Shown here: in pieces, positions 3,004 to 18,475 of the stretch | Numbering within the stretch: position 1 is the stretch's first letter | How the letters are laid out: the number at the start of each line of letters is the position of its first letter | Source of the DNA: a virus | DNA: 20,876 nucleotides | IMG/VR virus record: IMGVR_UViG_3300036045_000505 | Span: 1-20,876 of that record | Direction: 5' to 3' (one strand) | Notes under the pieces: model-generated | Told to the model about the DNA's origin: nothing | Database searches by the model: none | What the model saw: only the letters and a program-made list of their open reading frames with translations | Program-made: the position numbers and the translations under genes

Positions 3004-3431
3004 TGAGCGCGGCGTCGGCCACGCGGATCGACGTCATTGGGCTGAAGGAGCTACGGCGTGACCTACGCAGGCTGGCGGACGACGGCCACTGGCGGCCGCG
3101 GCTCAGGGAGACGAACCTCCGGGCGGCCGGGATCATCGCCAGCGACGCGCGGAGCCGAGCGTTGTCGCGGTCGAGCCCCCGGATGGGGTCGGTCGCGTCC
3201 GGCACGATCCGCCCGCTCGCGGCGCAGACGAAAGCCTACGTCGCGGTGGGACTGGCTAGCGTGCCCTGGACGATGGGGCACGAATTCGGGAGCGCGCGCT
3301 ACTTGCAGTTCCCGGCGGTTCGGAAGGGCGGCTACAACGTGTTCCCAGCCGTCGCCGAGCGCACTGACGACGTGATCGATGTGTACGGAAGACTCCTGGA
3401 CGATGTCGCGAGAGAGGCGTTTCCAGGATAG
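3003..3431 (+). CDS. HK97 gp10-like minor structural protein
   Basis: 142 residues from ATG 3003, which overlaps the TAA of the tail tube gene by one base. It begins with the typical gp10 pattern: a strand plus helix (IDVIGLKELRRDLRRLADD), a second helix (LRETNLRAAGIIASDARSRA), a 'GSVASGTIRP' segment, then a strand-rich part with MGHEFGSARYLQFPAVRKGGYNVFPAVAER and a final helix. Proteins of this family act in head-tail joining or tail completion. In HK97-like genomes this gene normally precedes the tail terminator and tube genes; here it follows the tube gene, a small reordering. It ends 13 bp before the chaperone start. Confidence 0.75.
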   Translation: MSAASATRIDVIGLKELRRDLRRLADDGHWRPRLRETNLRAAGIIASDARSRALSRSSPRMGSVASGTIRPLAAQTKAYVAVGLASVPWTMGHEFGSARYLQFPAVRKGGYNVFPAVAERTDDVIDVYGRLLDDVAREAFPG

Positions 3432-15617: not shown

Positions 15618-15689
15618 AGTGGGGTAGAGCAGCGGCAGCTCGTTGGGCTCATAACTCAAAGGTCGCGGGTTCGAGTCCCGCCCCCGCTA
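15618..15689 (+). tRNA. tRNA-Met (anticodon CAT)
   Basis: A full cloverleaf can be drawn: acceptor AGTGGGG (15618-15624) with CCCCGCT (15682-15688), one T-G pair; D stem GAGC/GCTC with loop AGCGGCA; anticodon stem TTGGG/CTCAA with loop CTCATAA, anticodon CAT at 15650-15652; variable loop AGGTC; T stem GCGGG/CCCGC with loop TTCGAGT. Position 89 (A) is the discriminator and CCA is not encoded. It reads as elongator Met, though CAT could also be an Ile tRNA read after lysidine modification. It sits between the lysis block and the minus-strand cassette. Confidence 0.92.
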
Positions 15690-15709
15690 CACACCGCGAT
15701 AGAGACGCC

Positions 15710-15758: not shown

Positions 15759-16073
15759 TTAGTGACTAACCTCAACCTCGACGTTTTTGACGCAGGTCTG
15801 GGGCCGGGTGTGGTTTGGTGCACTATGCCACGCGCCTTCGCGGACCTCGACATTCGAGAGTCCGGCTAGTGGAATGCAGCGCCAGTTCTGCCTCTCATCG
15901 GCCGACAGTCCGGAGCTGCTCGATCCTCCGAACTGGTAGAAGAGCGCTTGCGCCTGTCCCTCTTTCCCGTGCCCGAGCGTATGTGGGCACATCTCGCGGC
16001 GATGGCCGTTATAGGTCGCGATGACCTGCTGCTTGTTCCGAATCGCGTCGGCAATGAGCGCGTAAGTGTCCAT
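15759..16073 (-). CDS. small hypothetical protein, WYL-like beta fold
   Basis: 104 residues. The start is taken at 16073 because AAGGAGG lies 4 bases upstream; the open frame runs on to 16169 only by reading through the CRISPR-like repeats. The protein starts with a helix (MDTYALIADAIRNKQQVIATYNGHRREMCP) and continues in strands (QAQALFYQFGG, NWRCIPLAGLSNVEV, QTCVKNVEVEVSH). The 'helix, then I-xx-Y-NG-xx-R-xx-P' pattern resembles the beta-barrel core of WYL-domain proteins, which bind nucleic acids or nucleotides. It would be co-transcribed with hicAB, 24 bp downstream of the CRISPR-like element. Function is unknown; a regulatory role is only a guess. Confidence 0.65.
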   Translation of the reverse strand: MDTYALIADAIRNKQQVIATYNGHRREMCPHTLGHGKEGQAQALFYQFGGSSSSGLSADERQNWRCIPLAGLSNVEVREGAWHSAPNHTRPQTCVKNVEVEVSH

Positions 16074-16094: not shown

Positions 16095-16181
16095 CCGGAA
16101 CACCCCCACAGGTGTAGGGACAGTTGCTGATCCAAACCGGGATCGGCGGTTTGTCTGGGACACCCCCACGGGTGTGGGGAC
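16095..16181 (-). CRISPR. two-repeat, one-spacer CRISPR-like mini-array
   Basis: Two 27-bp copies (16155-16181 and 16095-16121) match at 23 positions and are exactly 60 bp apart, leaving a 33-bp spacer (16122-16154). Read on the minus strand each contains GTCCC[C/T]ACACC and then [C/T]GTGGGGGTGT, forming a 6-bp hairpin with a 4-base loop followed by a GTGT[C/T]CC handle, which is how type I-E repeats look. Of the four changes, one keeps the stem as a T-G pair and one falls in the loop. The downstream copy is the less canonical one, as usual for the trailer end. There are no cas genes in the window. The spacer itself has a 7-bp inverted repeat (16133-16139 with 16147-16153), so a purely structural RNA element remains possible. 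Confidence 0.6.
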
Positions 16182-16190
16182 CCTGAGAGC

Positions 16191-16442
16191 TTATACCCCC
16201 GCGATCTCGGGGACCACCGGAGGCTCGATATCCAGGACCTCTAGCCGAACCGGACGCTCCTCAACCGGGACTGGATCGCCGCCAAGGCGAAGCGCGTAGA
16301 CGAACCCCCGAATCGCCTCTTCTGCCCGCTCCAGGGCCTCCTCCACGGTCCGGCCCTGGGTCACGCAGCCGGGCAACGCCGGCACGGTCACGGTATACAT
16401 GTCGGACTCCTCCGCGGGAGTCAGGACGACTGAATAGCGCAT
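16191..16442 (-). CDS. hicB: HicB-type antitoxin
   Basis: 83 residues from ATG 16442, with AAAGGAG 6 bases upstream and 13 bp after hicA. It has the HicB partial RNase H-like fold: a first strand (YSVVLTPAEE), a second strand with the signature YTVTVPALPGCVTQG, and the following helix RTVEEALERAEEAIRGFV. It should bind and neutralise the HicA RNase. The C-terminus (VPVEERPVRLEVLDIEPPVV) has no helix-turn-helix or ribbon-helix-helix, so this short form may not bind DNA itself. The gene ends 9 bp before the CRISPR-like repeats. Identification is by motif and by pairing with hicA. Confidence 0.88.
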   Translation of the reverse strand: MRYSVVLTPAEESDMYTVTVPALPGCVTQGRTVEEALERAEEAIRGFVYALRLGGDPVPVEERPVRLEVLDIEPPVVPEIAGV

Positions 16443-16709: not shown

Positions 16710-16735
16710 ATACTATAGCATACGTGCTAGAGTAT
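16710..16735. promoter_or_regulatory. palindromic operator at the hicA promoter
   Basis: Arms ATACTATAGCA (16710-16720) and TGCTAGAGTAT (16725-16735) are inverted with a single mismatch around a TACG centre. It covers the -10 box and the spacer of the hicA promoter, so bound protein should block polymerase. The core TAGCA-N4-TGCTA occurs again at 16986-16999. Confidence 0.75.
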
Positions 16736-16740
16736 GTCAA
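16712..16740 (-). promoter_or_regulatory. hicAB promoter, sigma70-type
   Basis: On the minus strand TTGACA (16740-16735) and TATAGT (16717-16712) are separated by exactly 17 bp, a near-consensus promoter. Predicted transcription start about 16705, 22 bases before the hicA ATG. Confidence 0.8.
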
Positions 16741-18211: not shown

Positions 18212-18330
18212 ATTGTGAGCAGTACGACAAGTGGTACTGCGGCCTTGGGCTGTTCGGTGTCCTTGGGTTGGGCCGACTGCGGGGCGTCAACGGGTCATAA
18301 GACCCTCACCACGACCCAGAGGGTACCCCG
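18212..18330. other. gene-free stretch with a small hairpin
   Basis: No convincing coding frame here. GGGTC (18292-18296) and GACCC (18301-18305) can form a 5-bp hairpin, and ACCCTC (18302-18307) can pair with GAGGGT (18319-18324). It marks the switch from the minus-strand cassette to the plus-strand module. Confidence 0.4.
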
Positions 18331-18475
18331 CCCTCTCCCGTGAACGGGAGAGGGGAGCTCTAACGCGGCGGCCGGTGTGCCAAGCACCTATCCCTGTCCC
18401 GGGAGCGGGAGAGGAGAACTAAGACGACTTCTCTTATTGTTCGGTCCCCCTTCTCCCGTAAGACGGGAGAAGGGG
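18331..18475. repeat. REP-like intergenic palindromes
   Basis: CCCTCTCCCGT (18331-18341) pairs perfectly with 18344-18354, and CCCCTTCTCCCGT (18447-18459) pairs perfectly with 18463-18475. Both share the core CTCCCGT..ACGGGAG. A degenerate third unit (TCCCGGGAGCGGGAGAGG, about 18398-18415) lies between them. Such palindromes are typical of chromosomal intergenic repeats rather than of compact phage operons. GGTGTGCCAAGCAC (18374-18387), a variant of the leader motif, lies inside. Confidence 0.7.

Follow-up and report, generated by a model that had tools for sequence, protein, structure and literature searches.

A type I-E-like mini-CRISPR unit beside hicAB in a virus record and its possible role as an RNA decoy

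Described systems and the unit beside hicAB

Virus-borne mini-CRISPR arrays, in which one spacer lies between two repeats in a viral genome with no cas genes and no recognised leader, have been described (Medvedeva et al. 2019, PMC6858448). The spacers of the published interviral mini-arrays match adjacent genes of close relatives, not those of the carrier (PMC6858448). RNA anti-CRISPRs (Racrs), tested type I-E Racrs included, are phage-encoded repeat mimics found in intergenic sequence beside small genes (Camara-Wilpert et al. 2023, PMC10651486). They are solitary repeats; repeats within 100 bp of each other were clustered into arrays and set aside in the RNA anti-CRISPR survey, so that a two-repeat unit falls outside the Racr definition (PMC10651486). 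CreTA and CrePA have a pseudo-spacer between two degenerate repeats beside a toxin gene (PMC8501985, PMC12737573), and two-repeat CreA genes are common in CreTA modules (PMC8501985).

The unit analysed here is located in virus record IMGVR_UViG_3300036045_000505, the whole 20,876 bases of which are referred to as the window. The record carries portal, tail tube, tape measure, endolysin and hicAB genes. Since no capsid gene was recognised in its 20,876 bases, the window is probably a fragment of a phage genome. The unit shares with the viral mini-arrays its single spacer, its two repeats, its viral location and the lack of cas genes and of a recognised leader, but its spacer is self-complementary and has no virus match in the databases searched. 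It resembles the Racrs as a phage-encoded type I-E repeat mimic that is intergenic and beside a small gene, although its second repeat, 60 bp away, separates it from them. A place near an acr gene is a further mark of Racrs; the neighbour here is a 104-aa WYL-like gene. The pseudo-spacer between two degenerate repeats beside a toxin gene recalls CreTA and CrePA; unlike these, the unit shows no pairing of its seed with the toxin promoter, its toxin has a protein antitoxin, and no cas gene was found among the scanned proteins of the record. A sequence-only reading of this DNA had put the unit forward as a candidate for an undescribed system. That proposal is not supported, as viral mini-arrays and RNA anti-CRISPRs are already published and dozens of sister units were found. 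While these elements are established, a role of two-repeat units as decoys is less so.

Table 1. Features of the repeat unit and its neighbourhood in the window
Feature	Position	Strand	Description
R1, first repeat	16157..16181	-	reads GTCCCCACACCCGTGGGGGTGTCCC; stem CCCCAC/GTGGGG, loop ACCC, handle GTGTCCC
R2, second repeat	16097..16121	-	reads GTCCCTACACCTGTGGGGGTGTTCC; stem change pairs as G-U on the minus strand
Spacer	16122..16156	-	35 nt separating the 25-nt copies; a 28-nt repeat, as in type I-E arrays, would leave 32 nt (16125-16156)
Spacer hairpin, 7-bp perfect	16133..16153	-	CAAACCG - CCGATCC - CGGTTTG
hicB-like antitoxin gene, 83 aa	16191..16442	-	Pfam PF15919, E 2.2e-10; phrog_497; ends 9 bp before R1
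hicA toxin gene, 75 aa	16456..16683	-	Pfam PF07927, E 1.2e-18
Promoter-like site	16712..16740	-	TTGACA-17-TATAGT, extended -10, upstream of hicA
WYL-like small protein gene, 104 aa	15759..16073	-	AAGGAGG before ATG

The two hairpin repeats that the sequence-only reading had placed 60 bp apart are present (Table 1). They are 25-nt direct repeats, identical at 22 of 25 positions and spaced 60 bp from start to start. On the minus strand, each shows a stem of 6 bp closed by a loop of 4 nt, with GTGTYCC as its 3' handle. All the type I-E features tested, a TCCCC-type stem, a 4-nt loop and a GTGNNCC-type handle, are found in both copies. The window contains exactly two instances of the type I-E motif TCCCYRCNNNNGYGGGGNTGNNCC, whereas 100 dinucleotide shuffles gave none, and not one of 60 shuffles of the window produced a pair of 25-nt sequences spaced 55-66 bp and identical at 22 or more positions. 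The sole difference within the stem is a C-to-T change, which pairs as G-U when read on the minus strand but leaves a mismatch when read on the plus strand. Because pairing is kept on the minus strand, the change fits a minus-strand RNA and may be a small hint of selection on such an RNA. A 28-nt repeat conserved over its whole length was not found; the copies share 25 nt only, and two of the first three bases of the 28-nt repeat differ between them. The earlier count of one spacer is correct, and the length of 33 bp given for it (16122-16154) becomes 32 nt when the repeat is taken as 28 nt. The whole 120-nt stretch folds no better than its shuffles (z -0.38), no leader-like sequence was recognised at the unit, and tRNA was the sole match in an Rfam search. 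Mini-arrays are defined by one or two spacers between direct repeats in a virus, and the unit, in a virus record with no cas gene among the scanned proteins, falls within this description.

The repeats run in the same direction as hicAB and begin 9 bp after hicB (its end is at 16191), as had been claimed. They are 23 bp upstream of the co-directional gene at 15759-16073, and thus sit between this gene and hicB. The statement that no cas genes are nearby also holds for the scanned proteins of the 20.9-kb record; the remainder of the genome lies outside it. The site upstream of hicA is promoter-like by consensus match only (11/12 positions, 0.4 such sites expected). As a candidate promoter, it would transcribe hicA, hicB, the repeat unit and the 15759 gene. 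An inverted repeat, ATACTATAGCA-TACG-TGCTAGAGTAT at 16711-16736, overlaps the site and is a possible HicB operator.

The 15759 protein scores E 0.093 against WYL (PF13280), below the cut-off, and is 30% identical to a Deinococcus WYL protein. Its AlphaFold model, made from the 104 residues without an alignment, was unusable (pLDDT 38). The protein is also 53% identical to an unannotated ORF on small plasmids of E. coli and Shigella (colicin N plasmids in the two examined), a match that stands beside a GC-rich phage with an apparently distant host. No relatives were found via the endolysin or the 15759 protein, and the portal identified one, which is distant and without the repeat-unit region. 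The unit lies beside lysis genes. A tRNA-Met (CAT) gene at 15618-15690 adjoins the endolysin gene; the tRNAs closest to it, from Thermomicrobium and Peptoclostridium, are 90% identical, which is not decisive for the host. Elsewhere in the window, a pair of hairpins of the CTCTCCCGTGAACGGGAGAGG type (18329-18414) is spaced at exactly 61 bp, lacks a CRISPR handle and is probably a terminator or REP-like.

A search with a degenerate version of the repeat through 84,980 species, one genome each, identified 13 stretches. True arrays of roughly 61-bp period make up several of these (Actinomadura, Frankia and Lyngbya), and the others are single or edge-of-contig copies. Related repeats were also seen in Thermocatellispora, Streptomyces and Methylovulum in the species-genome scan. 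R1 is identical at 22 of 28 positions to the type I-E repeats of the Lyngbya, Frankia and Actinomadura arrays, with the differences mostly in the first four bases, and R2 at 24 of 28 to the Lyngbya repeat. Overall, the window copies agree with the array repeats at 20-24 of 28 positions, most mismatches falling within the first four bases, in the loop and at one base of the handle. The comparison with type I-E arrays that had been suggested therefore identified arrays of the same class, but the exact R1 core is in none of the 84,980 species genomes. Judged by these comparisons, the likeness of the repeats to type I-E is specific, and the stem-loop, the handle and the matching repeats in true arrays of about 61-bp period uphold the identification as a type I-E-like mini-CRISPR.

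Sister units in viral contigs and cultured phages

Viral contigs were searched for two type I-E-like stem-loops at CRISPR spacing, identifying at least 119 stretches, about half of which are two-repeat units. At least 44 viral two-repeat units have a type I-E-like handle, with the window and L028 counted in. The spacing in the two-repeat I-E-like units is mostly exactly 61 bp, among the matches listed. For four pairs of related phages, R1 is identical at 24 to 28 of 28 positions, and the spacers agree at 21/34, 23/33, 27/33 and 29/33. Divergence is greatest in the spacer in three of these pairs and in R2 in the fourth (L088/L105). Separately, a solitary type I-E-like repeat that matches R1 at 23 of 25 positions is present inside the start of a phage gene (a 339-aa ORF; L003:9454-9478).

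The perfect hairpin in the window spacer has a stem of a length reached in 1% of shuffles, and the fold of the spacer is marginal (z -1.7 to -1.9; p 0.05-0.07). Spacers from 35 viral two-repeat loci (L030-L148; the window and L028 left out) were compared with 207 long-array spacers. Their median dinucleotide-shuffle fold z is -0.86 against 0.13 (p=1.5e-5), and 8 of the 35 have z of -2 or below against 11 of the 207. The viral two-repeat spacers are more self-structured than the long-array spacers, a post hoc result, as the pattern was first noticed in the same spacers. Two-repeat units were also sought in 296 genomes of one phylum, which yielded mainly long arrays, and the fold enrichment thus rests on one set.

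Cultured Propionibacterium freudenreichii phages of two genera carry a two-repeat type I-E unit: Anatole (L156), E1 (L160), Doucette (L158) and B22 (L157). The stretch of repeats and spacer is identical in Anatole, B22 and Doucette, with differences in B22 in the bases just before it, and the spacer is unchanged across the two genera. R1 of this unit matches the published host type I-E repeat at 23 of 28 positions and has an intact handle, the period is 61 bp, and the spacer is not unusually folded (z 0.1). The unit (L156:1440-1530) is next to holin/endolysin and repressor/integrase genes. It is like the window unit in its two type I-E-like repeats and its place beside lysis genes, and unlike it in that the R2 handle is lost and no hicAB is annotated alongside. 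The available passages of the phage genome paper (PMC5831693) make no mention of the repeat unit. Streptomyces phage Piccadilly and its relatives have six degenerate type I-E hairpins in tandem in a non-coding gap (L151:1444-1745), spaced at 61, 60, 58, 49 and 51 bp.

Possible roles of the unit

The usual reading of two-repeat CRISPR units in viruses is that they attack other viruses. A crRNA-like RNA engaging Cas6e or Cascade of the host is the likely product of the window unit, and the earlier suggestion that a viral mini-unit acts on host Cas proteins is plausible for a cas-less, type I-E-like unit in a phage. More tentatively, we favour the unit being a type I-E mini-CRISPR of the virus that is transcribed together with hicAB and serves mainly as an RNA decoy of Cas6e and Cascade. 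Following transcription with hicAB, host Cas6e would cut both repeats, and the cleavage would release an RNA that has the length of a normal crRNA and a correct 5' handle. These useless guides would occupy Cas6e and, once loaded, Cascade, so that host interference would be weakened. Such a decoy would act in the manner of an RNA anti-CRISPR, in a two-repeat form, with hicAB providing a promoter and an insertion point instead of being a functional partner. The decoy is preferred to a guide against other viruses because the searches gave no target, the guide can pair with itself, and the sister units mostly keep their repeats better than their spacers. Against it stand the P. freudenreichii phage spacer, which has no unusual fold and is conserved over two genera as mere filler need not be, the frequency of unmatched spacers in general, and the sister guides that resemble genes of their own genomes.

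A guide against other viruses, the main rival of the decoy, with the crRNA directing host Cascade to competing related phages (superinfection exclusion) as in portogloboviruses and phage mini-arrays, is possible but on present evidence doubtful. The architecture of the unit is that of the surveyed phage mini-arrays. Among the matches listed, five or six sister units have a spacer that resembles sequence of their own genome beyond shuffles. In L028 the spacer agrees at 30/33 with the HK97 gp10-like gene next to it, of which it is a diverged copy, and this is what a guide of this kind would be expected to show, while the L065 spacer matches at 29/33, those of L052 and L115 at 25/33 each next to an AAG PAM, that of L134 beyond shuffles and that of L144 marginally. 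Because these five or six guides resemble own genes, some units of the class do appear to target, and their spacers would fit the published interviral mini-array pattern. The L028 unit is at 3063-3144 and its gene match at 3351-3383; a 12-bp inverted repeat, GTGCAGGGAGGC/GCCTCCCTGCAC, flanks the unit.

For the window, the guide folds upon itself, and nothing above chance matched its spacer in 50,697 phage records, 72,556 plasmids or its own 20,876-base fragment, nor was there any match, exact apart from every sixth base, in 2.9 million viral contigs. For environmental spacers, the lack of a match is usual. The absence of a self-like target is weak evidence, since the record, in which no capsid gene was recognised, is probably a fragment and such a target could lie in the missing part.

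It is improbable that the unit is a functionless relic, a piece of a host array gained by recombination. Both repeats do differ from every known array repeat, there is neither a recognised leader-like sequence nor a protospacer in the databases searched, and yet the unit retains its stem, loop length, handle and spacing, with a G-U pair at the changed stem position. The unit also sits in an operon, and its sister units are conserved across phage genera.

Still less probable is a regulatory guide of the CreR kind, in which a seed-only match would send Cascade to a host promoter, such as that of the cas operon, and shut immunity down. This implies a AGACANACCGC-like site with a PAM near the host cas promoter. 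Guides that need only a seed are known (PMC8501985). The first 16 spacer bases of L111 and L139 are identical with the rest scrambled, and those of L064 and L074 agree at 14 of 16; the pair L088/L105 shows the opposite, with 12 of 16 in the seed and the rest kept.

There is little to recommend a cis-acting element, in which the hairpins would make the 3' end of hicB more stable or regulate how the 15759 gene is translated and the CRISPR likeness would be secondary. The location between hicB and the next ribosome-binding site would suit it, but the handle and 60-bp period match CRISPR repeats beyond the stems, the stretch has no unusual fold, and the plasmid homologues of the 15759 gene are without such hairpins.

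The link to the toxin that had been raised, as a guard or in regulation, was not sustained. HicB is the expected antitoxin of hicA. Although the unit adjoins toxin genes as CreA genes do, a CreTA-like guard is unlikely, and a CreTA or CrePA guard of the hicA toxin itself is barely credible, because HicA accompanies 0 of 47 virus records with comparable units, no CreA-like seed was found over the whole window and hicA promoter (the best seed-plus-PAM site at that promoter has 7 of 11 matches, reached by 84% of shuffled spacers), the antitoxin role is already taken by HicB, and no cas operon was found nearby among the scanned proteins of the record. The adjacency of the unit to toxin genes looks incidental and is best explained by a phage accessory-gene site.

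Two-repeat units as RNA anti-CRISPRs

The decoy can be extended to the claim that phages encode a distinct class of RNA anti-CRISPR, comprising two-repeat, crRNA-length decoys with the guide locked in its own hairpin, the window unit included. This wider claim is unlikely as yet. If it were true, Cascade would be loaded but blind, and earlier surveys would have passed such pairs over as mini-arrays. Most of the surveyed two-repeat units have no recognisable self-like target, and a share of them have self-folding guides. With carriers in culture, the P. freudenreichii and Streptomyces phages, the decoy question is testable at once. If these units are decoys, RNA anti-CRISPRs would be more varied than the solitary repeats described so far.
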